This document shows, piece after piece, positions 25,780 to 62,917 of a DNA stretch of 64,000 bases (position 1 is its first letter; each line of letters begins with the position of its first letter). Made by a program: the position numbers and the translations under genes. The notes beneath the pieces were generated by a model that saw only the letters and a list, made by a program, of their open reading frames with translations, searched no databases and was not told the DNA's origin. The stretch covers positions 62,001-126,000 of the forward strand of contig BGKB01000002.1 in NCBI GenBank assembly GCA_003116975.1. Direction: 5' to 3'. Origin of the DNA: Aurantiochytrium sp. KH105 (lineage: Eukaryota > Sar > Bigyra > Thraustochytrida > Thraustochytriidae).

Positions 25780-27330
25780 CTAGAAACACTTGGTGTTGAC
25801 GACGCAAGGACCAGCAGCATCATATTCCTGCTTGGAAATCCACATTTGCTGGAACTGGGGAAGCGCGGCAAGTTGAGTGCCACCAATCCAGGCCGAGTAA
25901 TTTCGCTTAGGCGGAGCGATAACTCTTACATGTGCATTCGCGGGTGCGAGGATGATCAACTCCTTCTCGAGACGCGCAGGAAAGCCCTCGAACATCGTGG
26001 AACCCCCCGACAAGACGATGTTAGCGAAGAGTTCGTTGCGCATGTCAGAGTCGCAGTTCATAATCGCACGATAGATTGCGTGGTGAACACCAGGAGTCCT
26101 GAAATCACCAATCAACGATGGCTCGAACAATGCCTCCGGGCATTGAAAACGCTCGCTGCTGATGGTAATTGACCCATGAGACATCTCGAGGGACGAGGAC
26201 CCGGCGGTGACTTCGTATTCAGCGTCAAAGTCGTAGGCGACATAACAAAGTTCCTCCTTCGCTTTGCAGACCATTTCATGCTCGGCTTTTGTATTTATCA
26301 AATGACCGCGCTCGCCAAGAAGCCTGACCATGAAGTCTGTGAGGTTGTGGCCGGCGACTTGGGTAGGAACCACATCAGCGAGGAGAGCTGAACCTTCGTA
26401 AATGGGTACAGCATGCGTGGCACCATCTCCCGAGTCAAGGACGACACCAGTCGTGCGTCCCGTGGCGAAGAGCGCGAGCACGGCGTTAATGGTAACGTAC
26501 ATGGCCGAAACTTCAAAAGTCTCGAACATGATCGTCGTCATATGCTCGCGATTGGCCTTCGGGTTCAAAGGTGCCTCAGTGAGGAGAACGTGAAAGTCCT
26601 CCGGGGCAACGCGGAGCTCGTCGTAAAACGTGTATCGCCAAACACGCTCCATGTCTTCCCAGTGTGTCACGATGCCGTACTCGATAGGATCTCTGAGCGT
26701 GAGAATGCTGCGCATGGTTTGGGCCTCACTACCGACATAGGCGTCCCTTCGCTGCGTTCCAGTTACAGCTCCATGTCTCTTTGGGTGGCCGACAACGGAG
26801 GGAAAGACGGCGCGAGGGGCGGACTCATCGCTGAAGCCCGCTTTGCAGATGCTGGAGCCATTGTCAATCACGAGAGCCTGGCTTTCGAACAGCACATCTC
26901 GTGAGGAACGCGATGAGTATTTCGACACAATGTTGTTGTTAATTCTCAGAGATGCTCGTAGAGACCTTTGCACAGATATGCGTTGCTGCTCAGTCGATTC
27001 TGCAGACACCCTTTCGTCCTGCGAGTCGACGGAGTCTTGGTCATCAAACTCGTCGCTTGATTCCTGCGAGCTCATGGAGGACGCAAGATCGTCTTGAGCT
27101 GGGGGCTCTACAAGCGGGAGAGCGCGTCCTGGCGTAAGGGCTCTTTTCACCCGAGAAGTAGCATTCTCTGCTTTACGCTTTATCCACCTATATTGCACAC
27201 GGGCCTTTGCTGAGGAAGTGCGTCGCGCAGAGTTCGTGTTGTCCTGTGCATCGTCCCTCGAGCTCGCGTCCTCATAAGATTGCGAGCTGGAGCTCCTTCT
27301 CGACATGAGCCTGTTCGTGAAGCCCCCCAT
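25780..27330 (-). CDS. Divergent actin-like protein A with Ser/Arg-rich N-terminal extension
   Basis: 516 residues from ATG 27330; the frame stays open upstream through GCTCGCTTGC repeats that I treat as leader. Residues about 150-516 are a full actin fold. Phosphate loop 1 is V-I-D-N-G-S-S-I-C-K-A-G-F, phosphate loop 2 is L-D-S-G-D-G-A-T-H, and the adenosine loop is G-G-S-T-M-F-E-G-F. It also has T-E-A-P-L-N-P-K-A-N-R-E and ends N-T-K-C-F, like R-K-C-F of actin. Nucleotide-binding residues look kept, so ATP binding is likely. The segment replacing R-P-R-H-Q-G of actin is K-R-H-G. The 150-residue N-terminus is basic then acidic and Ser-rich, and unlike any actin-related protein I know. Next to actin-like protein B on the same strand. 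Confidence 0.85.
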   Translation of the reverse strand: MGGFTNRLMSRRSSSSQSYEDASSRDDAQDNTNSARRTSSAKARVQYRWIKRKAENATSRVKRALTPGRALPLVEPPAQDDLASSMSSQESSDEFDDQDSVDSQDERVSAESTEQQRISVQRSLRASLRINNNIVSKYSSRSSRDVLFESQALVIDNGSSICKAGFSDESAPRAVFPSVVGHPKRHGAVTGTQRRDAYVGSEAQTMRSILTLRDPIEYGIVTHWEDMERVWRYTFYDELRVAPEDFHVLLTEAPLNPKANREHMTTIMFETFEVSAMYVTINAVLALFATGRTTGVVLDSGDGATHAVPIYEGSALLADVVPTQVAGHNLTDFMVRLLGERGHLINTKAEHEMVCKAKEELCYVAYDFDAEYEVTAGSSSLEMSHGSITISSERFQCPEALFEPSLIGDFRTPGVHHAIYRAIMNCDSDMRNELFANIVLSGGSTMFEGFPARLEKELIILAPANAHVRVIAPPKRNYSAWIGGTQLAALPQFQQMWISKQEYDAAGPCVVNTKCF

Positions 27331-28473
27331 GGTTGCCTGAGTGCCTGTCTCACTGCCTGGCAATGATTGCCTGGCTCGTTGACCTTTGCGACACTCCTGG
27401 GCTCTCTCTCGCTTGCTCGCTCGCTTGCGTGCTCGCTCGCTTGCGTGCTTGCTCGCTTCGTGCTTGCTCGCTTGCGTGCTCGCTCCCTCGCTCCCTCGCT
27501 CGCTCGCTTGCTCCCTCGCTCGCGTCTTCGCTGCCCTGCCTCTTCTCCGCCCTCTTCTCTCCGCGAGCTTTCGGGTTTGCTGCCTCCAAACAGTCGTGAG
27601 ACGAGACGCTCGTTGGCGCGCGTCCAGCGAGACTTGCGGTTCCCGTGCTCGAAGCCTTAACCGAGGGTCTACACTGTGGCGTAGCTGCAGCTGTGGTGAG
27701 GGAATCACCATACGTGTCTCTTCTACGCTCTCTGCATAAAGAAATTTTTCGTCCGCTCGATTGCGATGGGCAGGTAAGAATGAATTCATGCACGCGGAAA
27801 CGAATGAACGAGTGAATGAAGAGCAACCAACTTGGACCGCAGCTGGGTATACGCCTTGCCAGCCCAATCTTGGGTCGAATCCAAGCGCGTGAATCATGCC
27901 GCGCTTCCACCCTCATCAACGTTGCCGCGGATCCGCATGAACAGCGTTCTCCAGCGGGGCTCCCTTCCCTCGATCTGCCGTGACCAACACACCCCCCTCC
28001 CGCCCTGCGTGAATCGATCTGCGCGGCGGCGGAGGAGACGCAGCCGCAGCCTGGCTACGACGCAGGCAAAGAAGTATAGCCGTGAATCGCGCGTGCAGGG
28101 AAGAGGGCTAAGTGGGGGGACGCCGCGGCGAGGCTCGTCACCGAGCCCAGGGAAGGCCGAGAGACCGAGCCGCGGCCACGCGCGGAGGGACGGAGGCTGG
28201 AAAGCAGCCAGGCGGCGAGCGGCTAGGTATGCGCTCCTCTGTCGCGGAAGCTCCAAAGGTCTCGGTAGACGAATTCCTTTTAATCGTTCTCCGCTCCACC
28301 CACCCTCATTCTTCCTGCTTTCTCCCTCTTACCCTGCTCACGCTGGCTTGGTGAAATCATCAATGCGGGGAATAAGCGCCCCGGCTCCGAGGAGCAATAT
28401 CACGAAAACATCGTTCTCTGAAGTTAGAAAATATATCGCTCGCCGTCAGCGGCTGATGTTGGAAGCTTCTGAC
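27331..28473. other. Gap between the two actin-like genes
   Basis: 1.1 kb: leader of actin-like A with GCTCGCTTGC repeats (27400-27530), then non-coding sequence with presumed 3' UTR of gene B. No gene is supported. Confidence 0.55.
27400..27530. repeat. GCTCGCTTGC/CTCCCTCG repeat in actin-like A leader
   Basis: Imperfect GCTCGCTTGCGT units on the plus strand, purine-rich on the transcript strand. This run encodes the SERARKRASK-type peptide in the upstream open frame that I reject as coding. Confidence 0.75.
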
Positions 28474-30972
28474 TTAATAAAAACACTTGCGGTGAACGAT
28501 TGCAGGGCCAGACTCCGAATATTCTTGCCTCGTAATAGCAGTGGGGCGAAAAGTAGATAATGATGCTAACATGGCGCCGCCATTCCAAGCAGAATACTTT
28601 CGTCCACTGGGCGCGATGACTCTCAGCGTATGAAGAAACTGACTCGGAACAAGTTCGAGCAACTCGTTCTTGAGACGATCGCCAAAGCCCTCGAACAGAG
28701 TCGATCCACCTGCCAGGACGATGTTCTCGTACAATTCTTTGCGAAGGTCCACGTCACATTTCATAATACTCTGGAAAACCATGTCATGGACACCACAGTC
28801 GTTTGATCGTCCGACGAGGTGAGGTTGAAAGAGCGGCTCGGCAAAACGGGAGCACTGGTCATTCTCAATGTACAGGCAGTTACCGTCTGGGAGATCGAAG
28901 TACTTTCCACCAGATTGCGTACCCTCGTCGAGCTTCTGCTCCACGCAGCCGAGCTTCTCTTTGATCTGGACAACGACCCTCATGTCGGCCCTCGTCGTCG
29001 CCCTGAAACCACTTTCCGCGAGGACTCTCATTGTATAATCTGTCAGCTGACGGCCAGCGATATCGATCTTTTGACAGGCGTGGGTAATAGGGTAGAATTC
29101 GAAGATGGTGCCCACTTGGGTCAGGCCATCACCTGACTCAAGCACAAGTCCCGTCACGCGTCCCGTTGAAGCGAGAGAGAGTGCTGGTTGAGAGACGACA
29201 TAAAACGCTGGAACGCTGAACATATCGAACATGATTTGAATCGTGCGCTCACGGTTGATTTTGGGGGTCAGCAAAGGTTCAGTGATGAGTAGGGGGTGCT
29301 CGCTGGGGTCCACGCCAAGCTCACTGTAAAAAGTGTGGTGCCACAAAGCTTCCATGTCATCCCAATTGTTGACGAGACCTTTTTCGATAGGGGATGTTGT
29401 CGAAAGCAGAAGACGGCATTGAGTAGCCTCTGAACCATAGTAAATGTCTTTTCCGGTGGTCATGCCTACGAGGGGGCGCCCAACGACCCGCCCAACGACC
29501 CAAGGGACAATGACCTTGGGCCCACCATGGCCATCAGCAAAGCCTGCCTTGCAAAAGCCTGAGCCAGAGTCCAGTACCAGAAAACAGGGGTCATCCGCAC
29601 CTGAATGCAGAGCCCGGAAACTGTCCGCTTCATCATCGTCGGGCAATCGCGACTGCGTTACTGACGCATGACGCGATTTGGTCATTGTCACAACCTTTGT
29701 TTTGGCCTCGTGGACCCTTTTCTTCATCATGCTTGCCTTTTCTTGCACAGTGGCGAGCGCCGCGCTCCGAAGACTGGAACCGACACCCCGTGATCCCGAA
29801 GCTGAGTCTGCAGGTTGTTTCGCTCCTAGTTCTTCTTGAGAGGAGGCTTCAGCGACTTCCAAAAAGCCTAGCTCCTCTTCGACTTCCTCTTCGTCTTCCT
29901 CGTCAACTTCGTCTTTTGCTTCGACTTCCGCGTCGACTTCCTCTTGAACTTTCTCATTTGCTGAAGACGGAGTGCCTTTCTTGGCGAGTATCACCTCTCT
30001 CCACATGCAAACCTTTTCTCTTGCATCAGCATACTTTGCTTTACCTCGCGACTTGATCTCTGCAAATCGCGACGTGGACGTCTGTTCCGCGTCGTGTTCT
30101 TCGCCGGCTACATGGGCTTCTCTTGGAGAAGGGTTTCCGTCCTTTGCAGCCCAAATCTTCCTTCTCAATGAGCCAGCTCTTGCTGTGACGACTCGTCTCG
30201 CCTCTACCACCCTGGCACGAGCTCTTGACGACACATTGCCGTTTTCCTGATCCGCGTCCTCTTCTTCGACTTCCGCGTCGACTTCCTCTTGAACGTCCTC
30301 ATTTGCTGAAGACGGAGTGCCTTTCTTGGCGAGGATCACCTCTCTCCACGTCGAAACCTTTTCTCTTGCAACAGCATACTTTGCTTTACCTCGCGACTTG
30401 ATCTCTGCAAATCGCGACGTGGACGTCTGTTCTGCGTCGTGTTCTTCGCCGGCTACATGGGCTTCTCTTGGAGCAGGGTTTCCGTCCTTTGCAGCCCAAA
30501 TCTTCCTTCTCAATGAGCCAGCTCTTGCTGTGACGACTCGTCTCGCCTCTATCACCCTGGCACGAGCTCTTGACGACACATTGCCGTTTTCCTGACTCGC
30601 GGCCTGCTCTTGGACATGCAATGTGTCTCCAGGTCCTGTTCCTGTGCTAGAGCGGCTCAAGGAACGCTGCTCTGAGTCATGTTCTTCGTCGACTGCATGT
30701 GCTCTTGCGGCCCAAATCCTCCTTCTCATCGAGCTAGCCTTTGCCATGACGACTCGTCCTGCCTCTGTCACTCTGGCACGTACTCGTGGCGTCGCATCGT
30801 CGTCTCCGTGAACCCCGGCCTGATCCTGTTCATACGATGTGTCTTCTGGCCCTGCACCTTTGCCCAAGCACCTCAAAGAATGCAGCTTGTCCGCCGCTGT
30901 GCTGGCCTTGTCCTTTGCCTGTGCGAACAGGTGAGCGCCTTTTGACCTCATCACCATCATCCTGTCAGACAT
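28474..30972 (-). CDS. Divergent actin-like protein B with repeat-bearing charged N-terminal half
   Basis: 832 residues from ATG 30972 (context gcgacaATGT); an earlier ATG at 31290 would add 106 residues of poor coding character. Residues about 460-832 form an actin fold: V-L-D-S-G-S-G-F-C-K-A-G-F-A-D-G, L-E-S-G-D-G-L-T-Q, G-G-S-T-L-F-E-G-F and a C-terminus H-R-K-C-F with one extra Tyr. It is more divergent than protein A; the first Asp of phosphate loop 2 is Glu. The N-terminal 450 residues are charged and helical, with two nearly identical 115-residue repeats (core ARARV[IV]EARRVVTARAGSLR, then K-I-W-A-A-K) preceded by a decayed third copy (R-V-R-A-R-V-T-E-A-G-R-V-V-M). No known actin partner domain is recognised. 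A filament-binding or membrane-binding role is only a guess. Confidence 0.85.
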   Translation of the reverse strand: MSDRMMVMRSKGAHLFAQAKDKASTAADKLHSLRCLGKGAGPEDTSYEQDQAGVHGDDDATPRVRARVTEAGRVVMAKASSMRRRIWAARAHAVDEEHDSEQRSLSRSSTGTGPGDTLHVQEQAASQENGNVSSRARARVIEARRVVTARAGSLRRKIWAAKDGNPAPREAHVAGEEHDAEQTSTSRFAEIKSRGKAKYAVAREKVSTWREVILAKKGTPSSANEDVQEEVDAEVEEEDADQENGNVSSRARARVVEARRVVTARAGSLRRKIWAAKDGNPSPREAHVAGEEHDAEQTSTSRFAEIKSRGKAKYADAREKVCMWREVILAKKGTPSSANEKVQEEVDAEVEAKDEVDEEDEEEVEEELGFLEVAEASSQEELGAKQPADSASGSRGVGSSLRSAALATVQEKASMMKKRVHEAKTKVVTMTKSRHASVTQSRLPDDDEADSFRALHSGADDPCFLVLDSGSGFCKAGFADGHGGPKVIVPWVVGRVVGRPLVGMTTGKDIYYGSEATQCRLLLSTTSPIEKGLVNNWDDMEALWHHTFYSELGVDPSEHPLLITEPLLTPKINRERTIQIMFDMFSVPAFYVVSQPALSLASTGRVTGLVLESGDGLTQVGTIFEFYPITHACQKIDIAGRQLTDYTMRVLAESGFRATTRADMRVVVQIKEKLGCVEQKLDEGTQSGGKYFDLPDGNCLYIENDQCSRFAEPLFQPHLVGRSNDCGVHDMVFQSIMKCDVDLRKELYENIVLAGGSTLFEGFGDRLKNELLELVPSQFLHTLRVIAPSGRKYSAWNGGAMLASLSTFRPTAITRQEYSESGPAIVHRKCFY
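29921..30595. repeat. 345-bp tandem duplication inside actin-like B
   Basis: Two copies (29921-30250 and 30266-30595, period 345 bp) differ at only a few positions and stay in frame. Each encodes one 115-residue unit. Confidence 0.95.
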
Positions 30973-32153
30973 TGTCGCAAGTTTCGGAATTGCTAAGATC
31001 ACATCATCCGCCAAGGCTTTCTTCCTTTTTATGTACGAAAGACAATGGAGATTGAATCGACTGCCGAATTTGCACTTTCGTTTAGCCTCCGGTTCCGGTT
31101 CCCCTAGAAAATGTCCTGACGGCGATCTTGACGGCCAAATTTTATTCGCCACTGCACCCCCCAAAATCTTTTCGCGTGACCTAGCTGACTGCCAAAAGAA
31201 TCGGTCACTGGCGGCGGGATTTCCGGCGATGTCCAAATCCCTGTTTCTTCCTTTCTGGAGCACGTGCAGCCCGTTTGCTACTGCTAGCATCTCGCTGCCA
31301 TCGCAACATTCGCCTATTCCGACGATAGGCTTTCCCAGCCTGAAGCTGAAGTCGTCGCGTCGGCCGTCACTCCGCTTTCACAGGCCGACGCAACTTTCTC
31401 AAGCCCGCCCGGCCAATGTTGATCATCGCCTTGACCACGATCTTTTTCATTCGTTCTCCACAAGCATTCTCCAAGCGACAGGCGCTGCGGGTCACCCACA
31501 CCTCCGTTCATTCGCAGCCCCAGGCGTCCGAGCCTGAGCCTGAGCCTGGACCGGGCGCCGCGGATGGGACCGCACGATTTACGTCCTCGCCATCGGCGTC
31601 CGCCCTTCGGCGTTGGTATTCTCCCTCTGACCGACGCAACGCAACCGCCTCCCTCTCCCGGCCGCTGCACGCGCTGCCGAGCGTGACGCGCCCCGGCTAG
31701 GCGGGAGTTCCTTCTTACAGTTAATTAATCATCAAGGTGCCGGCTGCTACGAAAGTCCTGCAACGCACAGATCGTCCGAGCGATCCGAAGGCCCCAGAGG
31801 TTCCAGAGCCTCCGAAAGCTCCCGACCAGCCAGATAGCGACTGGCACGCACGCACAGGAGAGACTCGGGCAGACAGACAGACAGACAGACAGACGCAGAC
31901 CAGCAGGAGAACCTCGCCTCGATCGACGCGCGCGGCCCTTCTCCGCTCCGCCCCGGCCGGCGCAGACCCGCGCCCGCCCGCCCGCCCGCCCCCCCGCCCG
32001 CCCGCGCGCGCGCGCCGTCCCGCTCCCCGCGCCGCGAGCCCGGCCGCGGCGGCGAAGAGGAGCGAGGCGAGCAAACCCCGCGCGGGGGCGCGGAGGCGCG
32101 CAGGCGAGGCGGCGCAGCAGGCGACGCGAGGCGGGCGCGCGACGCCTCTCAGC
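30973..32153. other. Divergent region between actin-like B and NF-YB
   Basis: 1.2 kb. Contains a CAGA run near 31868-31892 and C/G-only repeats (CCCG and CG) near 31975-32015 in the NF-YB leader. An in-frame extension of actin-like B (to 31290) lies here and is disfavoured. Confidence 0.55.
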
Positions 32154-40407: not shown

Positions 40408-42428
40408 TTTCTCTTGATAAAAGTCTGCTTGGGGTACGGCTTGGGGCGCTTTTGGTGCTTTGTCTGAGTTGCTTTTGGTGCTTTGGGCTTTGGCTTTCTT
40501 TGGCTTTTGGTTTTGCTTTCGAGGTTGCGGGTTTGCTTTCCCGAGACCCCCCCCGCCGCCGCCGCCCCGCGCCGCCCGCCCTGTACGCGCCGCCCGCCCC
40601 CCGCTCCGGCTTTCCCTGCCCGCGCGCGCGTCCCGGGGCCGGCCCGCGCGGGCCTGGCCGCGGACGCCGCCGCAAGCGTCCCCGCGCGTCCCAGCGAAGC
40701 GTCCCGAGCCGTTTCGGGTTGCGCGGCTGGCCGCTCCGCTCTGCTTGCCCGCCTTCCCCCCCCGAGGCGGCGGGCGCCCTGCACACCGCGCGCCCACAGC
40801 TGGGCCGCGCGCCTCGTCGCTGTGGCCGCCAATGAGTAGCCAGCTGTAGGCGGGGGCAGCGCGACGAGATCGCCGAGCGCGGAGGCCGTCGGCGGCGTCG
40901 TCGAGGCGCGGCGAGGCAAGGCGCGCGGCCAGCGGCCACGGGCGGATCTCGCGACGCACGAGCGCCGGCCCTCGCGACGCCGTCTGCGGCGGCGTCGGCG
41001 TTGGCGGGGGCTGCTGAGCGAGCGAGGGAGCGAGGGAGGGAGCGAGGGAGGGAGCGAGCGAGCTCGGCCCGGACGCAAGTGTGGACGCGCGATCGTCCCG
41101 GACGAAGGAAGTTGCCTCACCTCACGGGTGACTCTGCTTGGAGGAGGGATTTGGCTGTCTGGGAGCGAGGCGTGGCCGATGACGAGCACCGGCCAGGGCG
41201 GCTGGCGGACTGGCCATTGCGCACGAACGACGCGGCATCTGCCATGGCTGCAGCTACGGCCGGCTGCGGCTAGCTGGCTGATGGCGGCCATGCTGGCGAA
41301 GTAGCTGCGCGGCGATGATACCAGCCAGGCCAGCAACCACCCGCCTTGACAGACCATGCAACAGGAACCGTCCATCATCCATGAGATGTGGCCAGCAGCC
41401 ATGGCAGCAGCCAGGCAAGGCTGATCCTTCACCAGGCTGCTGGCCACCAAAGTCTCAGGAATGGATGATGGCACCAGTGGCCGGGAAGCTAGCTGCTTCG
41501 CCGGGAATGCTGCGGGAAGCTAGTCTACCAAAGTGCGGGGCGCCGGGGGGGGGATGCGTCCCGGCCGGTTGCTCGGGGAAGACATCGACGGCCATAGTGG
41601 CGTTAGCGGCGGCGCGGACGTCTATACACAGCAACCGACTCGGAGGCAAGTAACGAACGAACGAACGAATGAACTAACTACACAAGAAGATGCTCGGGGA
41701 CGCCACCAGGCAGACTGGCAGCTAGTTCAGCAGCAGAACAGAGCAGGGCGGTGGGAAGCTGCAGAGCAGAGCAGGCTTGTGTCGACCATTTCGGACGACC
41801 GGCCGGCCGGCCAGGGACACGGACGGAGCCTGGTGGCGGCCGCGGAAAAGTCCTGTGTTTGATGGCCAATGCGGCCATGCTGTCTCGTTGCGGGAACGAT
41901 GCATAGCCGATGGCTGCTTTGCTGCTTGGCTCGTAGATAGCGCCAGTTTCCTCGACATTTCCCGGCCAACACCAAGCAAGTCATACATGGTGACTGATGG
42001 TGACTGCCAGCTGCCATGGCTGGCTGATGAAGATCATTGCAATTGCCGGGAAATCAGCTCGTCGCCAAGGCCGCCAATCTTGGCAGGTGCTACAGCTACC
42101 ACCACATAGACACCCATTTTCATAGTAAGGCGTGCAGGTATCAAGAGAAGACGTATAGGATTCTTGGATTCGGTAAAACTTCTTCAGAGGGTTTTTTTTC
42201 GGTGTTCAAGAGCCCATGAACAAGAGCAAGAGAATGCTTCGGGTTTGAGTGAGCCTGAGAAGCTGCTAGGCTGAGCGGCGATCGAGCTTGAAAGCTGCAT
42301 CTGCGACCACCGGCGGAGGCGGCACAACCCACGCTCGAGGTCGCACGAAGGCTTGCGTCCAAGTTAGGCCACGAAGCGACGGCGAACAAAGGTTTGGTCG
42401 ACGAGCAGTCGCCATTGGGATTGGTGCC
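40408..42428. other. Region between paralogue 2 and transposase gene
   Basis: 2.0 kb. The left half is GC-rich leader with GGGAGCGAG repeats near 41020-41065. The right half is CCAGC/TGGC-rich with AACG units near 41652-41670. No terminal inverted repeat matching the element at 44761-45074 is visible upstream of the transposase. Confidence 0.55.
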
Positions 42429-44651
42429 ATGGAGGATGAGCTCCAAAGCGTCCCTGGCCACTTGAGCGTCCAAAATCAAGACAGCTCAGGTCGCCAGAGT
42501 GGTCTTGTTTCTGCACGTCCGGGCTTCGTAGGTCGAGTGTCCGCGGGTGATGATGCCACTGGGGCTGACGACCTCGTCACCGTTGCCTCGGAGGCCGCCA
42601 CCACGACGGATGCGAGTGGTGAAAACATGCGAGATTCTGTGGTCGGCAACAATGGCCTTGACCTCAGGCGGGCCACGGGTGGCGCCCCCATTGACGACGA
42701 TGTGCAAGCTCAAAGCGTGCATAGCCTTCCCAGCTCAAATCCGTTCCAGAGGCATCAAATCCATCATACGATCCCTCTGACGGACCCAGCAGCCTTGGCA
42801 GATCGGCGTCGGCGGCTCGAGAAGCTGGCAGCGGCACACCCTCCTCATCTTCGAAAAAGCCATTGGGTCACTGGCCATCATCCCACGCGCCCTGGCGAAT
42901 TGTGCAGCGACAATATTCACCAGGGCCGCCGGCTCCCAGAAGCGTATGAGATGGAAATTTCGGGCGATCAGACAACTGGCACCAATCACATGATTTTTGA
43001 TTTCGATGAGATATCGACCGGCTCAGACCAAGCCTCAATACTGAGTGAAAACAATGAAGTAAAACCCGACAGTGAGGAAGAAGAGCTTGAAGACGCTACT
43101 TTGGGCGGGGCCTCTGCCCCAGCAACTTGGAATTCGGCAAAGTCTTCTGGAAATGCTACAGTGCAGAGCGAGGATTCTGCTTCGTTGGCCCATGTGGTCC
43201 AACATCGCTCACATTTCACCCTCGAGCAAAAGAGGGCTGTCATCAACGCCTATCTTCGAGGAGGAAGAAAGGACGCAATTGCAACAGGTGCTGTCCAAAC
43301 TCCAGTCATGCAGCCAAGGACCGTTGACTCTCTGGTGGCCAGATTCAAAAAACTCGAGCGGGATGGTCAGAATCCGTTCACCGCTTGTTCCGACAGACGC
43401 GTCAACAACAAGGGCAAGAGCTCAAAATGGGATGAAAAGTATCATACTGAGCTCATACTTTGCCTTCTTCATGACAATCCAACCTATACGCTTGAGGAAA
43501 TGCGATCTGGCTTGAATACAGAGCTTGCGCGTAGGAAGCTGAACGAGTTTATCACTGATCATGGGAATGATGTCTTACAAATGACGAAAGAGGAACAGGA
43601 GATGTTTCATCCACTTAGCGAGGAGCGAATGCAGGCTCTTTTGGACCTTGCTCCTATCGTCAAAGAATGGTACAAGCGAGCGAAAGTCTCCCAAACCACT
43701 ATCTCACGTCATCTCAGAAAGAGACCCATCTGCTTCACACGGAAGATCGCAAAAACTGAAAAGTCCTCAGTTAATACGAAGGCTGGCATGAAAGCGCGTT
43801 TCATTTTCGCAAAAAAACTGATGAGTCTCATCAATCACCCAGAGGGGAATGAGCTCATATTTATTGACGAAATGTCTTTCTACCTTGCAATGCACAGGCG
43901 ACACGGGTGGGCCAAGTCGGGAGATCGTGCAGTGGTTAAGGTTCCTCCAATCAGCAACTTTGCGTATCGAACGCAGGTCGCAGTGGCCGTGCATCCAAGG
44001 GAAGGACTCATTTACGGGGACTGCTACTTGCCAAAGAAGATGAACGTAATCAGGGCGAAGGATGGAGAGCTTTCTCAGCGGTCCGTCCTCAAGGCAGCGT
44101 ACACGCGAGACGAATTTCGCAACTTTATGAGTGGGCTTTTCCGCCGCTTAATGGAGAAAAATTGCAACTGGGAAAGCGGATCGTACAAGGATTTAATCAA
44201 AGGAAAGCGTGTGTTCTTAGTCATGAATAACGCCCCTGAGCATACAGCCGGTGTTTCTACGCCTGATGCTGACGACATCTTACTGAGGAGTATCGAGAAC
44301 TTCGCGCCACTTAACGACTTCATCACCGAGAATGGAGGCTCGATATCTTTTCTTCGAATTTCGCCAAATTCACCGCATCTGAACTTGTGCAAATACTACA
44401 ATCGCGTCCTTCGGACATTTGCTCAACATGAGCGCAACGACACTTTGATCACTAGCTTGCTCCTCGCTGAAAAGGTCCCTCATGGCGAGAAAGCCACAAG
44501 GCGACTCGGCGCTCTCGAAATCATCATTGAGAAGGGCTTTGAAAGGATCTACAGCAGCAAACCATTGTTTGGAGAATTGAGTGTCCTCGTAGCATCGCTA
44601 CAGAAGGTCATTGATCAGGACGGATTTCTAAATTATCAGACTCGTAACTAG
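42429..44651 (+). CDS. Tc1/mariner (IS630)-type transposase-derived protein, catalytic residues substituted
   Basis: 740 residues from ATG 42429 (tgccATGG). The N-terminal 240 residues are unique and partly acidic. Helix-turn-helix-like DNA-binding segments follow (HFTLEQKRAVINAYLRGG and later S-Q-T-T-I-S-R-H-L-R-K). The RNase-H-like DDE core shows L-I-F-I-D-E-M-S-F with D480, then V-M-N-N-A-P-E-H where the second Asp is Asn (N600), and S-P-H-L-N-L-C-K-Y-Y-N where the final Glu/Asp is Lys (K655). The motif order and spacing are those of Tc1/mariner. The frame is intact, yet two of three metal ligands are replaced, so cut-and-paste activity is unlikely. It could be a host-adopted DNA-binding protein or a recently inactivated copy. 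Codons are less GC-biased than in neighbouring genes. Confidence 0.85.
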   Translation: MEDELQSVPGHLSVQNQDSSGRQSGLVSARPGFVGRVSAGDDATGADDLVTVASEAATTTDASGENMRDSVVGNNGLDLRRATGGAPIDDDVQAQSVHSLPSSNPFQRHQIHHTIPLTDPAALADRRRRLEKLAAAHPPHLRKSHWVTGHHPTRPGELCSDNIHQGRRLPEAYEMEISGDQTTGTNHMIFDFDEISTGSDQASILSENNEVKPDSEEEELEDATLGGASAPATWNSAKSSGNATVQSEDSASLAHVVQHRSHFTLEQKRAVINAYLRGGRKDAIATGAVQTPVMQPRTVDSLVARFKKLERDGQNPFTACSDRRVNNKGKSSKWDEKYHTELILCLLHDNPTYTLEEMRSGLNTELARRKLNEFITDHGNDVLQMTKEEQEMFHPLSEERMQALLDLAPIVKEWYKRAKVSQTTISRHLRKRPICFTRKIAKTEKSSVNTKAGMKARFIFAKKLMSLINHPEGNELIFIDEMSFYLAMHRRHGWAKSGDRAVVKVPPISNFAYRTQVAVAVHPREGLIYGDCYLPKKMNVIRAKDGELSQRSVLKAAYTRDEFRNFMSGLFRRLMEKNCNWESGSYKDLIKGKRVFLVMNNAPEHTAGVSTPDADDILLRSIENFAPLNDFITENGGSISFLRISPNSPHLNLCKYYNRVLRTFAQHERNDTLITSLLLAEKVPHGEKATRRLGALEIIIEKGFERIYSSKPLFGELSVLVASLQKVIDQDGFLNYQTRN

Positions 44652-44760: not shown

Positions 44761-45074
44761 TTTTTTTTAAGACCGTATTTTTCTAAGAGCAGGAGCAAAA
44801 ATATACGGAGATTTGACAGACCCGAAAATCCGCACTTGCGTTTCGCAGACCGCGGCGAGGNCGCATGAGGTGAAAAAAGGGGGTAACACAACTTTACAAC
44901 GAAGGCTTGCACGGCCGTGCCGCCGGGTGTTCTGGGCAGCCAGGCGGCGGCAGAGCGAGTCTGCGCGCCGGCGAGGCGATTGGCTGAAGTGCGGAATATC
45001 GCGAGTGCCAAATCTCCGTACACCAATATGGGAAATCGTCTCCTGGTCTTACGTGGAGACGGTCTTAAAAAAAA
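44761..45074. mobile_element. MITE-like foldback element with long imperfect terminal inverted repeats
   Basis: Ends are a perfect 16-bp inverted repeat, TTTTTTTTAAGACCGT (44761-44776) and its complement (45059-45074). Inner matches continue: TACGGAGATTTG (44804-44815) pairs with 45009-45020, and TCCGCACTT (44829-44837) with 44987-44995, giving arms of roughly 80-90 bp. The 314-bp length and absence of a gene fit a miniature inverted-repeat transposable element. No target-site duplication is evident. One base (44861) is undetermined in the assembly. It lies 110 bp downstream of the transposase gene, but a link is unproven. Confidence 0.7.
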
Positions 45075-45245: not shown

Positions 45246-48200
45246 TTAGAGCGACGCCGCAAGCGAAGCATCGAGGTCGAGGTCCGGGCCCACAAGGTTG
45301 GACGAAAGATCACTCGCAAGGTGAATGATCTCTCGCGGATTGCCCTCGCAGCTGTTCACAACAGCGTGCTGCGCAACCTCCTGCAGCGTGGCCTCACGCT
45401 GCACCACATCTGGGTCCTCATTGCTCCGAACAATGATCCTCCGCTTGAGGTGGCGAACAAAGAGCAATGCGGCATCACCCGCATGCATGGGCTGCAGCTG
45501 GTAGTTGACCACGTTCACATTGAGCGTGTGTCCCAAGTGCAGCGGGTTTTCCGAGGTAACGAGGATTCGTACGCCGGAAGTTTGGTCCAAAATTGAGTGC
45601 AAGACCGACATGGTCAGCGGAGACTCGCGAAAGTCGTCCAGCACAATGAGGCAGCGCGCCGAGTGCTGCGCGAGCGCGCGAGCGAGAAGATCGACCTTGG
45701 CGACCGCACGTCGACGGAGAACGTTGAGCGCGAGTCTTTTCTGGCGCTGGCTCGACGTCGCATCGCCAGCGCGCCCCGTCGCCTCCTCCTCCTTCTTGTA
45801 CTTGTCCTTTGCATCTTCCTTGAAGCTTTCTGATTCCTCCTCGTCGCTCAAGAGATCGAGGTCCGCGGAGAGCAGAGGCTCCGTAGCCTCAATGGTTGCG
45901 CGAGACACTGCCCGACGGTCCGCGTAAAAGTGAGGCGAGAACTCCATGGCATCCAAGTCACTGTCAGTTTCCTCGAAACCGAAAAATTCGAGATCCGCAT
46001 CCAAAGGCGCTATCGAGGGCTGCGAAGAGCTCATGCTACGCTGCATTGTCTGCTCCGCCGGGGTTTCCGCAGACAAGAGAGGGTACATGGCATCCCAAAG
46101 CTCATCCACGAGACTCGCCATCTCGGTAATTTGGGCTTCGGAAGAATCACTTGCCCCCTGCGTACGATGGTGCACGCCCTTGACGTAAAAGATGCCGTCC
46201 CGCATCACCGTTGCGCTGCGGCGCTGGTGGAGGTGGTGCGCCACGGCCAGCGCCAGTTGCGTCTTGCCCGCGCCCTCGGCCTCGGAGTGCACCGCGACGA
46301 GACGACGCCGGTCCTGCGTCAAATGACGCAAAACCGTCCACATGGCGGCGTGGCGGCCCAAAAACTCTTCGCAGAGCGGCGGCAACGCGCACATGGTGTC
46401 GCTAAGCGGCCACGAGCGCGACACCTGTTTACGCTCCTGCACAGAAGGCTTCCAAATGACCTCACGATGCGAGCTGTTCTCCGGAAGCAATACAAAGGCG
46501 TCCATGTCCTCCTCGGCAAAAGAGGGCGAGCTCTGCACGGCTTCGCGTGCCGACTCAAAGGCGTCGCGCACGGTGCGGCCACAGGCAAGCGCCAGGTAAA
46601 AGCTTCGCGTAAAGACAGCCGCAACTTGGTCGCGGACCCGCTTGCGGTAAGCAATGACATGCTCGACGCCCGCCAGCACGAACTCGCGCGCCGCTGCGTC
46701 CGAGTTGCATGCGTTCAGCACGACAAGACGAAGCGTCTTGAAGGACTGCCGCGTCACAGTGCTGCGCAGCAAGCCACGTAGCGTCTCCATGCTCACGGAG
46801 TGCAGTTGACCGGCGGCATCTTCAAATGCAATAAAGTTCTTGGTGCAGTGGCCGCTAAAGTGAAGGCAGCGCGCGTTTCCCAGGGTCATAAGCGAGTGAA
46901 AGGACTCCACCGTGGCGCACGAAACGGTCACGGGGACCTCGCTGCGAGCGTTCCCGTTGGACGAGAGCGCAGCAGCCCGCAGGCTCCGCCGAAGCATGGC
47001 GTACTCGCGCTTGATGTCGAGGCCCTGGACCGGTCGGAAATGTCTGCCATTCACCGTATTTTCCGCGTTGCTGGATCCCTCCTTGCCCGTCATGATGAGG
47101 GGCGAGGCGAACAGCAAGTGCAAGACACCCTCTTGCTGCAGCTGCTGCTGCGGCTGTTGGAAGTCGGCAACGCTGGGGCCACTGCCGCTCACAGGAGCCA
47201 GCGACGGAAGAAGGCTGGACGTGCATCCTTGATCAGTCGATGACGCAAAGGAAGAGCCCGAGACGGACCGAATCGGGTGCGCCGGGCGAATCGGGGCATG
47301 CAACGATTCGTTGAGGCGAAAAGAGTTTCCTGCGGGGGTCCGCGAGGCGCTCATGGATTCGGCGGAAATGCTACGCTTCGTAAGCACACCGACTTTGCTC
47401 ACCATGCACGTCGAGACGTCGGCTTCATCGAGATCCTGCTCGGCGCCGAATACGGAAAGGTCGCCAGCACCGGGAGGAGTGACACGCGACCCGCTGGCGT
47501 TGCTGCTGCTGCTGCGCCGACGCCTGTAGTAAACAGTCATATACACAAAGACGGCCACGAGGGCGGTGGCCTGAATGGAGGAGAAGATGACCTTGCTCAG
47601 CAAAAAGCTCTCGCAGGCCGCACCGCCATAGCCAAAGTCGCAGAGACATTGGCTGTCGGCGCATGTCCCGTGGCCAGAGCAGAGAGCGCCGCTGTGGCCC
47701 GCCATGCACCCCATGGATTCCGGATTTTTGATTTCGGCGCCGAACACACGAAGGTCTTGCACCTTGAGCTGGCCAAAGCTTAATCTCTGGATACGCAAGT
47801 AGCTACATGGACTATGCACATGCATGCTGAGACTCTGCGAATTCTGGAGAACGACTTTTTGCCAGCTGAACGGCAGGCCCGAAACGTCCGCAATCGGTTC
47901 AACCTTGAGCTCCTTGGTGCACCACACGAGAAGCTTGTTCTGCTCCGAGACGTGGTCCACGTTGACACCAAAGGAAATATGATCCACATAGTACAGTTTT
48001 TCGAGGTCCATGATAATGTACGGCGAGTCTTCACTGGCCGTTGCGATTACCTGCTGGTCCTCTGTGAGCCGGCAAAAGGTACCGGCCGAGGAAGACGATG
48101 ATGATTGGAGACAGGTCTTGTTCATCACCACATTGGGGAGAAACTCAGCAGGGTCGTCTCTGCCATCATCTGTTTCGTACACGATATTTGACGCGCGAGC

Positions 48201-48503
48201 AAAGCTCGAGCCCAGCGGCGTGGGGGAGAGCGACACTGAGTGCGCCTCTTCCCACGAATCTTGGCCTCCCGCGGCGTGCGATGGATGGTACGGCGTACCG
48301 GCCATGGGCGACGCGGCTGGGGCACCAACCACTTCCTTGTGCTCGTGGCTCGTGGACGAGGCGGGTGCGCTCGCAGCGCGCGCACCATCAGCCGCCGTGC
48401 CCGTCATCATGGTCGCGAGCAATACCACCAGGGCTGCCGTGGTCGCCCAGGTCCTTTTCGAGGGCGACCGCGTTCTCTTCTTGTTGTTGTTGGATACCGC
48501 CAT
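45246..48503 (-). CDS. Membrane receptor with discoidin-like and EGF ectodomain, CHAT protease and NB-ARC ATPase
   Basis: 1085 residues from ATG 48503 (gcaagATGG); an ATG at 48542 would add 13. Order: signal sequence (W-A-T-T-A-A-L-V-V-L-L-A-T-M-M), a discoidin/F5-8C-like galactose-binding fold (about 95-255, with Y-I-I-M-D-L-E-K-L-Y-Y-V-D-H-I), a six-cysteine EGF-like module (about 265-297), and one membrane helix (about 300-323) followed by R-R-R-R. Then a Ser/Gln-rich cytosolic linker, a CHAT caspase-like protease with dyad H552 (LHFSGHC) and C599 (VLNACNS), and an NB-ARC/STAND ATPase with Walker A E-G-A-G-K-T (K747), Walker B L-I-V-L-D-D (D956, D957), R-I-L-V-T-S-E-N and G-N-P-R-E-I. Walker A and B are about 210 residues apart because of an acidic insertion. 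No C-terminal LRR, WD or TPR repeats. An extracellularly triggered protease switch is inferred. Confidence 0.87.
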   Translation of the reverse strand: MAVSNNNKKRTRSPSKRTWATTAALVVLLATMMTGTAADGARAASAPASSTSHEHKEVVGAPAASPMAGTPYHPSHAAGGQDSWEEAHSVSLSPTPLGSSFARASNIVYETDDGRDDPAEFLPNVVMNKTCLQSSSSSSAGTFCRLTEDQQVIATASEDSPYIIMDLEKLYYVDHISFGVNVDHVSEQNKLLVWCTKELKVEPIADVSGLPFSWQKVVLQNSQSLSMHVHSPCSYLRIQRLSFGQLKVQDLRVFGAEIKNPESMGCMAGHSGALCSGHGTCADSQCLCDFGYGGAACESFLLSKVIFSSIQATALVAVFVYMTVYYRRRRSSSSNASGSRVTPPGAGDLSVFGAEQDLDEADVSTCMVSKVGVLTKRSISAESMSASRTPAGNSFRLNESLHAPIRPAHPIRSVSGSSFASSTDQGCTSSLLPSLAPVSGSGPSVADFQQPQQQLQQEGVLHLLFASPLIMTGKEGSSNAENTVNGRHFRPVQGLDIKREYAMLRRSLRAAALSSNGNARSEVPVTVSCATVESFHSLMTLGNARCLHFSGHCTKNFIAFEDAAGQLHSVSMETLRGLLRSTVTRQSFKTLRLVVLNACNSDAAAREFVLAGVEHVIAYRKRVRDQVAAVFTRSFYLALACGRTVRDAFESAREAVQSSPSFAEEDMDAFVLLPENSSHREVIWKPSVQERKQVSRSWPLSDTMCALPPLCEEFLGRHAAMWTVLRHLTQDRRRLVAVHSEAEGAGKTQLALAVAHHLHQRRSATVMRDGIFYVKGVHHRTQGASDSSEAQITEMASLVDELWDAMYPLLSAETPAEQTMQRSMSSSQPSIAPLDADLEFFGFEETDSDLDAMEFSPHFYADRRAVSRATIEATEPLLSADLDLLSDEEESESFKEDAKDKYKKEEEATGRAGDATSSQRQKRLALNVLRRRAVAKVDLLARALAQHSARCLIVLDDFRESPLTMSVLHSILDQTSGVRILVTSENPLHLGHTLNVNVVNYQLQPMHAGDAALLFVRHLKRRIIVRSNEDPDVVQREATLQEVAQHAVVNSCEGNPREIIHLASDLSSNLVGPDLDLDASLAASL

Positions 48504-60310: not shown

Positions 60311-61654
60311 ATGGCAGAGCCGCAGGCGGCGGCCCGCGTCGACGAGCAGCGGTTCCGACGCGCCACGGGGCGGCGGTTCGTGGGACTTACCGGCGGCGCA
60401 ACGGCGACCCCGACGGGGACCTCGACGCGGAGCGAGAATGCGGCGCAGACGCAGCAGCGGGGCCAGGCGGAGGGCGAGGAGTACACCTTTGTGCAGCTGG
60501 CGGACACGCAGTTTGGCATGATGGCGCAGTCGAAGAGCATGCAATGGTACCTGCAGCTGCGGCAACTCGTGTACCTGGCAACGTGCGGGAGAAATGACGG
60601 CAAGGCACTCATTCCCGTGCCGGAGATGCGCGCAGCGCTCAAAGATGCAGACGACGAGGCTTTGCTCGAACTCGAGATCGAGCTCGCGCGCAAAGCGGTG
60701 AAGATTATCAACCGTCTCCAACCCAAGCCCCGCTTCGCCGTGGTCTGTGGAGACCTCACCAACGCCTTTCCCGACAAGAAGCCCGCGCAGCAGGACAAGG
60801 AAGTGGCTGTTTTCAAGCAAATCTTCTCGCAGCTCGATCCCAAAATCGAGCTGGTCTGTGTGTGCGGCAACCATGACGTCGGTCAGAAACCGACCCCGCG
60901 GACAATTGAGCGCTACAAGGATCGCTTCGGCGACGATTACTTTTCCTTTCGCGTTGGGCCGGATCGTTTTGTGGTGCTCAACTCTCAGCTTTACGTTGAT
61001 TCCTCGCAATGCCGCGAGGCCGCCGAGGCCCAAGATATGTGGCTCGACACCGAGCTCTTTGACAAAAAGCCCCAAACGGTGCGCCACAGCATTGCCTTTT
61101 CGCACGTTCCTCCCTTTGTGTGGCAGCCGGACGAGCATCACGCCGGCTTTAATATGCCGCAAGCGGCGCGCATGAAGCTCTTGTCTCGCTTGGCTCAAGC
61201 GGGCTTCTCACACATTTTCTGTGGTCACTATCATCGCAATGCTGGCGGCATTTTCCAGCGCAAACATCTCGGACCCATTGAAGTCGTCACCACCGCGGCA
61301 ATCGGCGGAAATATTGGCACGGATACAGAAGCAGACGAGCTGGCCTTTGAAGGAATGAAGTCCATTGATGTGAGTGATCGCTTGAGTGGCATGCGCATCG
61401 TTCATGTGGGTCCCAATGGCGTACGCCACGAGTTCCGCACGCTTCGTGAATTGCGTGACGAGTATCGCGAGGCGCGCGACGCATGGACCTCCAACGAGGA
61501 TGCAACGATTCTCAAGATGCGCGAGGCAGGAGGCAAGTGGGAAGATATTGCCTCTGCGCTCACTAACCAGCAGCAGGGAGCAGGAAGCGAGCGTGCTCGT
61601 TCTGCTTCGCTGGTCAAACATCGTTACCGCAAGCTGGCGGCGCAGGCTTCATGA
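60311..61654 (+). CDS. CPPED1-like metallophosphatase fused to a Myb/SANT-like domain
   Basis: 447 residues, ATG at 60311 (gagcATGG). The calcineurin-like phosphoesterase core has the metal motifs A-D-T-Q-F-G-M, G-D-L-T-N-A-F, G-N-H-D-V-G, F-S-H-V-P-P and G-H-Y-H-R-N-A-G-G. These, with L-Y-V-D-S-S-Q-C, match CPPED1 (CSTP1), a Ser/Thr phosphatase reported in animals to act on AKT. Residues about 392-443 add a Myb/SANT/trihelix-like unit: W-T-S-N-E-D-A-T-I-L-K-M-R-E-A-G-G-K-W, E-D-I-A-S-A-L and K-H-R-Y-R-K-L. Animal CPPED1 ends without this. Nuclear or DNA-associated action is therefore possible but inferred. The N-terminal 50 residues are low complexity. Confidence 0.88.
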   Translation: MAEPQAAARVDEQRFRRATGRRFVGLTGGATATPTGTSTRSENAAQTQQRGQAEGEEYTFVQLADTQFGMMAQSKSMQWYLQLRQLVYLATCGRNDGKALIPVPEMRAALKDADDEALLELEIELARKAVKIINRLQPKPRFAVVCGDLTNAFPDKKPAQQDKEVAVFKQIFSQLDPKIELVCVCGNHDVGQKPTPRTIERYKDRFGDDYFSFRVGPDRFVVLNSQLYVDSSQCREAAEAQDMWLDTELFDKKPQTVRHSIAFSHVPPFVWQPDEHHAGFNMPQAARMKLLSRLAQAGFSHIFCGHYHRNAGGIFQRKHLGPIEVVTTAAIGGNIGTDTEADELAFEGMKSIDVSDRLSGMRIVHVGPNGVRHEFRTLRELRDEYREARDAWTSNEDATILKMREAGGKWEDIASALTNQQQGAGSERARSASLVKHRYRKLAAQAS

Positions 61655-61900: not shown

Positions 61901-62917
61901 CTATTCAAAGACTCCAGAGCCACGCACAATGACGACAGACACCACCAAAAGGACCAGCGCACAAAGGCTGTAGGTAAATACATAAAAGGGGACGAGATTG
62001 TTGGCAGCGATGATGGTGCCAGTCCACGGACAGAAATGATCGATGTGCCTGATTATTACTTGCGCCTCGACGTCGTACACGGCACGAGGCTGTCGATACG
62101 TTTGCGCTGGGTCACTGAATGTCCACGAGGAGTCCTTTGGAGAGTCGTGAATTCTTTGGATTCCGGGATCTGTGCACGCTGTGATGCAAAACGAGATGAT
62201 CACCACGAGCAAAAGAACGCCTCCAGCAATGCCAAAAGGCATTGGCAAGTTTGGTAGACAGGCAAAGAACACAGAAAGGCTCACACAAAGGATGAGCATC
62301 AGCGTAATGCAAATCATGGGCCAACATGGGCCAACCACACACAACAACTTGGGCGTACCGTCAGGGAGAGTACGCTCTGCCAGCACATACATGCGCCCGA
62401 CTTGGCGTACATACCACGGCGGTGACGGAACCTCGGCAGAAATGCAAAAACGGTCTGGCTTGTACACGGGGTATCGGTACACACGCGCCGGGTCCATTGG
62501 CACGCCAACCCCTGGCGTATCGTCGCTGTCATCGTTAGTTTGTTCGCTTGGAGTACTCGACTTTGGAGTGGCAGGTTGTACTGAGGCAGCGGAAGAGGCT
62601 GCCGACATTGGCGACGCTGGTGCCGTCGGCGGCGTCGTGGTAGTGGTTGCGGGCGTTGTTCTTGCTGCCCCAGCTCGAGGCGCCCTCGCTGGCGGGCTTA
62701 CTGCCGTGGACGCCGCGCCTGACTGCGAGGACGCAGCTCCCTGCGAAGCTACGACGCGCGCGGCCGATGTCGCCTGGGCGGGTTTCGCAGCGCGCTGCGC
62801 CATTTGCACGTTCGACCGGGCCTTGGTCGCCGTCGCAGGCGCGCCCTTGGCCGAGGGCGCGAGCGTCCGAGTCATCTTGGCCTTTGCCCCGTCGGATCGC
62901 GAGTCGGCGCCGGCCAT
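61901..62917 (-). CDS. DHHC-type palmitoyltransferase relative with degenerate zinc site
   Basis: 338 residues from ATG 62917. The first 140 residues are disordered Ala/Thr/Pro/Ser. Two membrane helices follow, then T-D-P-G, as in DHHC enzymes. The catalytic block reads I-D-H-F-C-P-W-T-G-T (D293, H294, F295, C296): the active Cys is kept but the second His is Phe. The cysteines that normally bind zinc ahead of the block are absent (V-Y-D-V-E-A-Q where relatives have Y-C-E-D-C-Q). One more helix follows and the protein stops about 20 residues later, so the usual fourth helix and TTxE motif are missing. Either an atypical enzyme, a pseudoenzyme, or a gene with an unseen 3' exon. Convergent with the phosphatase gene (246 bp). 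Confidence 0.75.
   Translation of the reverse strand: MAGADSRSDGAKAKMTRTLAPSAKGAPATATKARSNVQMAQRAAKPAQATSAARVVASQGAASSQSGAASTAVSPPARAPRAGAARTTPATTTTTPPTAPASPMSAASSAASVQPATPKSSTPSEQTNDDSDDTPGVGVPMDPARVYRYPVYKPDRFCISAEVPSPPWYVRQVGRMYVLAERTLPDGTPKLLCVVGPCWPMICITLMLILCVSLSVFFACLPNLPMPFGIAGGVLLLVVIISFCITACTDPGIQRIHDSPKDSSWTFSDPAQTYRQPRAVYDVEAQVIIRHIDHFCPWTGTIIAANNLVPFYVFTYSLCALVLLVVSVVIVRGSGVFE

Follow-up and report, generated by a model that had tools for sequence, protein, structure and literature searches.

In animals, the death receptors of the cell surface and the caspases are different proteins, connected through adaptors: can recognition outside the cell and caspase-like proteolysis inside it be carried by one chain instead? 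This question is raised by a gene in a 64,000-nucleotide stretch (hereafter the window) of the thraustochytrid Aurantiochytrium sp. KH105 (contig BGKB01000002.1, forward-strand positions 62,001 to 126,000). Its sequence shows, in a single frame, an N-terminal part with an EGF module, one membrane helix, a CHAT domain and a bacterial-type module derived from NB-ARC (hereafter NOD). The product resembles a receptor of the cell surface, with a caspase-like CHAT domain and a shortened, partly eroded NB-ARC module making up its inner half.

The locus holds a real gene in a single frame, whose parts are known but unusually arranged. The coordinates, the single frame of 1085 codons plus stop and the residue numbers H552, C599, K747 and D956/D957, all given by a first-pass annotation of the window, are correct. 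The stop-free frame around the gene extends over 1183 codons, and the longest stop-free frames in simulated 64-kb sequences (60 per composition) reached 655 codons with the composition of the open reading frame (ORF) region and 500 with that of the window. Codon preference, scored in overlapping 100-codon blocks over residues 1-1050 after training on 10 genes of the window with domain support, was above zero for the gene frame in 20 of 20 blocks and highest among all frames in 19 of them, the first block being the one in which another frame was ahead (0.126 vs 0.077).

The protein carries a CHAT peptidase domain that is predicted to be proteolytic, and both catalytic positions of the first-pass annotation are borne out. 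The match to Pfam CHAT (PF12770) reaches 63.8 bits (E 2.4e-17) against a cut-off of 24, and the invariant columns of an alignment of the window protein with 77 bacterial frames (alignment A4, 78 rows) include H548, G551, H552, N597 and C599, with D625 nearly invariant. The bacterial rows were chosen with H and C motif patterns, so that the invariance of these two residues is partly by construction; left out were the eight plasmid frames, six with E >1e-6, L056 and L076 (motif missing) and L039 (X). Furthermore, H552 and C599 align with the GH and NAC motifs of SAVED-CHAT (PDB 8tl0), which the 78-row family profile finds at 5.8e-37. An AlphaFold2 model was made of residues 455-1085 (mean predicted local distance difference test, pLDDT, of 64; predicted template modelling score, pTM, of 0.46), in which the CHAT domain is well modelled, with block-mean pLDDT values of 83-96 over residues 525-674. 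The top PDB fold match of this model is again SAVED-CHAT (E 6.8e-11), followed by DdvA, a transmembrane anti-sigma factor (E 1.3e-4), and, further down, by separase (3.1e-3) and a Cas7-11/Csx29 complex (3.9e-3). Peptidase_C25 is also matched (E<=1e-3) by 18 of the 78 CHAT-bearing sequences of the alignment.

What lies in front of the CHAT domain? Hydropathy marks two segments, residues 20-38 and a stronger one at about 300-325, and all ten cysteines of the N-terminal part precede the second. A signal-like segment, one helix and basic residues after it, all from hydropathy and sequence pattern, are features of a type I protein; according to the positive-inside rule, a helix followed by basic residues places the C-terminus in the cytosol. 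The single-pass, outside-in layout proposed at first is thus supported by hydropathy, and the EGF module, with its six cysteines, lies over the Pfam cut-off (EGF_Teneurin, 26.2 bits vs 24.3). The remainder of the ectodomain is plausibly discoidin-like, as had been suggested, although membership in F5/8C (PF00754) failed by Pfam, with no match at E<=1 for the full protein or at E<=10 for the isolated ectodomain, and is not claimed. With the EGF families set aside, its best Pfam match is to Muskelin_N (E 0.016), a discoidin-type domain, and hhalign aligns it collinearly with 15 F5/8C domains (columns 36-140 of 142, score 18.6, probability 2.4%; an unrelated part of the same protein scored 11.5). 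In a second set-up the ectodomain scored 23.1 (probability 12%) over 58 columns only, against 15.6 for the best of 60 shuffles, and in an hmmsearch with the F5/8C set it ranked first barely, with 5.0 bits vs 4.4 for the best of 300 shuffles (full protein 2.1). A single-sequence model of it is all-beta with a mean pLDDT of 43, too poor for a fold to be named from it; the best PDB match of the model is a collagen-binding domain of collagenase (E 6.2e-4), and lower ones are IFT25, carbohydrate-binding modules and viral capsid and toxin chains.

Behind the CHAT domain, the chain continues in the manner of certain bacterial proteins. Residues 546-751 (CHAT, linker and P-loop) align unbroken with a Haliscomenobacter CHAT-NB-ARC-TPR protein (E 1e-15); a second such protein from Haliscomenobacter aligns significantly over the CHAT domain only. 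A profile built from 11 bacterial NODs matches the gene with 20.0 bits, vs 6.9 for the best of 500 shuffles, in two collinear stretches, the P-loop region and one reaching from before Walker B to ARC1 (15.6 bits). Searched against solved structures, the 78-row profile, mostly bacterial, finds APAF1 (5.5e-6), Avs4 (1.9e-4) and plant NOD-like receptors (NLRs), with Rab GTPases from 0.001. The GKT of the P-loop (K747) is kept, and LIVLDD, with D956/D957, agrees with the Walker B consensus hhhhDD. The two halves of the NOD are separated by an acidic insert of about 130 residues.

Table 1. Features of the gene, by position in the window and by residue.
Feature	Residues	Position	Strand	Basis or remark
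Coding sequence, one frame	1-1085	45246..48503	minus	1085 aa + stop, from ATG
Alternative in-frame ATG		48545	minus	14 codons upstream of the chosen start
Signal-peptide-like N-terminus	1-38	48390..48503	minus	basic start, hydrophobic 20-38 (hydropathy)
Beta-rich, possibly discoidin/galactose-binding-like ectodomain (tentative)	95-262	47718..48221	minus	Muskelin_N, hhalign, all-beta low-confidence model
EGF-like module	266-298	47610..47708	minus	EGF_Teneurin profile; six cysteines
Single membrane helix	300-324	47532..47606	minus	hydropathy; YYRRRR next
Serine-rich linker	325-457	47133..47531	minus	C-terminal part matches decayed relative L008
CHAT protease domain	about 458-690 (Pfam match 497-663)	46434..47132	minus	profile, alignment, model
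Predicted catalytic His	552	46848..46850	minus	invariant in 78/78 aligned rows (bacterial rows motif-chosen)
Predicted catalytic Cys	599	46707..46709	minus	invariant in 78/78 rows (motif-chosen); present in L008 too
Walker A-like EAEGAGKT	741-748	46260..46283	minus	first P-loop Gly replaced by Glu; L008: ETGGAGKT
Acidic low-complexity insert within NOD	about 800-930	45714..46106	minus	pLDDT <50 in 808-888
NOD second half (Walker B LIVLDD, VTSEN, EGNP)	936-1067	45303..45698	minus	NB-ARC 20.5 bits; bacterial NOD profile

Is this arrangement found elsewhere? In the genome_contigs scan, the best 80 of 278 candidates encoding a relative came to 79 loci, all of them distant (best segments 22-38% identical) except one, L008. 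Leaving L008 aside, 94 CHAT frames were compared, 86 from 78 of these loci and eight from seven plasmid loci. A membrane-like segment lies ahead of the CHAT domain in 0 of the 94, so the N-terminal position of the sensor noted in the first-pass annotation is unmatched among them; a P-loop follows the CHAT domain in 25, of which 13 or 14, depending on the threshold, have a membrane-like segment thereafter. Eight of those with a membrane-like segment, all bacterial (L017, L025, L032, L044, L054, L062, L070 and L071) were searched with Pfam, and nSTAND1 was found in 8 of 8 and WD40 or beta-propeller matches in six (L070 only below the cut-off); CHAT is among the matches listed for at least five, the other three being CHAT-positive by separate evidence. 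In these eight the membrane-like segment stands after the NTPase, mostly with WD40-type repeats behind it, and they are probably membrane-anchored CHAT-STAND receptors. The earlier statement that such proteins are normally soluble was therefore too strong, bacterial CHASE2-CHAT and CHAT-nSTAND1 proteins with membrane-like segments being at hand. In bacteria, then, CHAT is probably attached to the membrane in some proteins; the present gene differs by its EGF-bearing N-terminal part before the helix. Scans of viral_contigs gave no relative, the phage scan a single weak hit in the CHAT region (29% identity, E 0.04), and the plasmids 66 records matching the CHAT region, of which seven were examined further. 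The sole PADLOC match was DpdF (E 0.03) and the sole NCBIfam matches were to nucleoside-kinase P-loops (E 0.0075 and 0.067); these were judged uninformative. On an Agrobacterium plasmid (L003, 1-6363) three CHAT genes stand in a row, the third on the opposite strand, with a winged-helix gene in front of the trio and a TIR-domain gene beside it.

Known systems resemble the gene in different parts. Bacterial CHAT-NB-ARC-TPR proteins are encoded on plasmids of Haliscomenobacter hydrossis (L004, L006) and in a Saprospiraceae metagenome-assembled genome, MAG (L010, L011, L043), and all three domains are recognised by Pfam (in L010 the NB-ARC below the cut-off). L004 and L006 have in common with the window gene the order of CHAT, a linker with two Trp residues, a GR motif and the P-loop; however, the bacterial proteins differ in having a canonical P-loop, a C-terminal TPR and no ectodomain, and they lack a membrane-like segment at the stricter threshold, the lower one giving a single such segment in L011. 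Bacterial CHAT-nSTAND1 proteins (L017, L025, L032, L054, L062) likewise combine CHAT with a STAND NTPase and are probably membrane-attached, but their membrane-like segment comes after an NTPase of another family and they have no N-terminal ectodomain. In the CHASE2-CHAT protein of Acaryochloris (L001), CHAT is joined, as here, to a sensor with membrane-like segments, although this sensor is C-terminal to CHAT and a P-loop was not found. Among solved structures, SAVED-CHAT (8tl0) matches the CHAT domain best in both sequence and fold, and Csx29 (in 8eey) matches it less well in fold; their activation comes from a nucleotide signal or a CRISPR complex, and, unlike what is proposed for the present protein, they are soluble and not ectodomain-activated. 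In eukaryotes, fungal CHAT-NLRs, contracted pyroptotic-like receptors, unite CHAT and NOD in one polypeptide, as here, and some fungal NLRs with a CHAT domain lie near gasdermins activated by CHAT proteases (PMC10197012, PMC12881547); by their description in the parts of these two papers drawn upon, they differ in using repeats as sensors, and an ectodomain or membrane helix goes unmentioned there. CHAT also appears among the fungal NLR effectors outlined in PMC9815663, and PMC10907252 deals with CHAT and STAND sensors of bacteria, a number of which have domains with a predicted periplasmic location. Among the open-licence papers that the literature searches listed, no title or beginning of an abstract describes a protein combining ectodomain, membrane helix, CHAT and NOD, which is weak evidence of absence.

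The arrangement suggests a type I single-pass receptor-protease, with a membrane-tethered CHAT domain under an extracellular sensor and the NOD reduced to a scaffold, a reading that we consider about evenly poised between right and wrong. According to it, the N-terminal part would lie outside the cell, where the ectodomain would bind a ligand or be clustered, perhaps by a surface glycan or lipid, and CHAT-NOD units would thereby be gathered beneath the membrane, on its inner side. In its shortened form the NOD would not be a full NLR switch but a clamp that promotes oligomerisation or holds a nucleotide. The assembled CHAT domains would cut a single substrate or a small number of them, in the cytosol or close to the membrane, such as a signalling protein or a pore former of the gasdermin type, with death or a signal as the outcome. 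N-terminal extracellular sensing would replace sensing by C-terminal repeats, and the protein might serve in immunity, allorecognition or death. The stronger idea, in which the ectodomain itself gates the tethered CHAT domain, extracellular recognition leads directly to caspase-like proteolysis in a one-protein surface receptor, and an NLR nucleotide module serves as scaffold, is put forward tentatively, as somewhat more probably wrong than right. If true, it would add a third layout to the two formed by soluble NLRs and by death receptors with adaptor-recruited caspases, and surface recognition and caspase-like execution would be wired in one step. Fungal CHAT-NOD fusions are described as intracellular receptors, whereas here the extracellular sensor would be in the same chain. 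Moreover, a single mutable residue, C599, and the swap of a single module make the idea testable in a microbial eukaryote.

Several observations weigh against a receptor of this kind. NB-ARC (PF00931) matches residues 936-1067 only, with 20.5 bits (22.6 for the core alone) against a cut-off of 23.5. The P-loop, EAEGAGKT, departs from the GxxxxGK[ST] consensus by starting with Glu, and its stretch alone scores only 2.5 bits with the bacterial NOD profile. VTSEN stands at the site where L004 and L006 read VTSR, with Glu for an Arg that is presumably the NB-ARC sensor-1 Arg, and there is no winged helix, ARC2 or MHD, the chain stopping 29 residues after CEGNP (1052-1056). The P-loop region is modelled at low confidence, so that the NOD assignment rests on sequence profiles. 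In the fold search, sugar kinases (from 2.4e-4, with poor superposition) come after DdvA and before separase. As for the outer half, the surface topology is a prediction from hydropathy, and a PDB sequence search with the ectodomain returned no discoidin, its three weak matches being headed by an F-box/WD-repeat protein (E 0.033). No gasdermin was found among the 28 scanned of the 69 window ORFs of at least 200 aa (the gene itself included). The other scans yielded no further close relative besides L008, which is without the segment holding H552, and the ectodomain was not found in the rest of the L008 stretch or in the whole bin (E<=1e-3). Because the first Gly of the P-loop and the sensor-1 Arg are replaced, an acidic insert intervenes and winged helix, MHD and repeats are missing (no repeat family at E<=1 by Pfam), a normal NLR switch is unlikely. 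The NB-ARC switch of the first-pass annotation is thus weakened, and the absence of C-terminal repeats holds, with the NB-ARC itself truncated as well.

What else could the protein be? It might be a surface receptor whose CHAT domain is a regulated signalling protease of adhesion, shedding or development, and not of immunity or death. Adhesion proteins typically carry EGF and discoidin-like modules, separase is a CHAT relative with a non-death role, and the search for a gasdermin gene was negative in the ORFs scanned; yet the core is common to NOD proteins, and PMC10197012 connects the fungal NLRs that bear CHAT with gasdermins and with cell death. This alternative is a serious one, albeit unlikely on balance.

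A recent or chance fusion of a CHAT-NOD gene with an unrelated ectodomain gene, leaving little receptor function in a decaying lineage, is distinctly unlikely. It has in its favour the eroded NOD motifs and the state of L008, the single close relative, which lies on a contig binned to a MAG of Phycisphaerae (planctomycete) that is possibly a mis-binned eukaryotic contig; a long frame on the same stretch contains runs of acidic residues and of serine and is only weakly DEAD-like. L008 (1017-1996) matches the protein at 50% identity over residues 388-530, 59% over 570-756 and 79% over 567-638. Its two matching parts are in different frames and a 29-residue insertion duplicates neighbouring sequence, and these, with the missing His segment and ectodomain, make it a decayed copy of the CHAT-NOD core. 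The conserved architecture in relatives that had been looked for could therefore not be established. Nevertheless, the 1085 codons are open with a positive coding score in the ectodomain too, the CHAT dyad is present, and purifying selection acted on the part shared with L008 during much of the time since the two diverged, as indicated by a ratio of non-synonymous to synonymous substitutions (dN/dS) of 0.27 across 299 codons, falling to 0.15 within codons 570-660 (dS 0.7 to 1.6, partly saturated).

In a further alternative, which we hold to be quite improbable, the NOD is still a full ATP switch and the protein a conventional CHAT-NLR with a membrane anchor. GKT and LIVLDD are kept, and the P-loop of L008, ETGGAGKT, has Glu at the same position, so that this variant is not a new lesion; the absence of winged helix and MHD and the replaced sensor Arg speak against it. 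Very improbable is a wrong gene model, in which ectodomain and CHAT would be two genes or downstream spliced exons would supply winged helix and repeats: the sequence is a draft (N at about 44861) and MFS and DHHC matches are partial in some neighbouring frames, so introns may occur in the genome, but the frame is continuous with a positive codon score across the junction, an AT-rich stretch directly follows the stop, same-strand downstream stop-to-stop frames are only of 123, 93 and 56 aa and smaller before a transposase, and several neighbours have whole domains in a single frame (NMD3, kinase, actin-related, AMG1).

The surroundings of the gene are eukaryotic in their domains, neighbouring frames carrying an HBS1/eEF1A-like GTPase, a Rad51-like protein, a kinase, NMD3, transporters, SET, PHD and AMG1; an Rfam search of the window returned nothing at gathering scores. 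A large transposase-like frame (DDE_3, 30.0 bits, cut-off 28.6; 42288-44651, plus strand) converges on the gene from its 3' side, and just past the stop lie two nested inverted repeats (44761-45074, arms of 35 and 34 nt, 80 and 82% complementary), perhaps a miniature inverted-repeat transposable element (MITE)-like element. As the stop is 172 bases from the nearest repeat arm, truncation of the gene by the neighbouring transposon is conceivable but not needed as an explanation. Elsewhere in the window, two adjoining actin-family proteins (25780-27897 and 28474-31290, minus strand) have the actin domain C-terminal, behind N-terminal extensions of about 340 and 570 residues, and one frame (60311-61651, plus strand) joins a calcineurin-like phosphoesterase to a C-terminal Myb-like domain scoring just below the cut-off.

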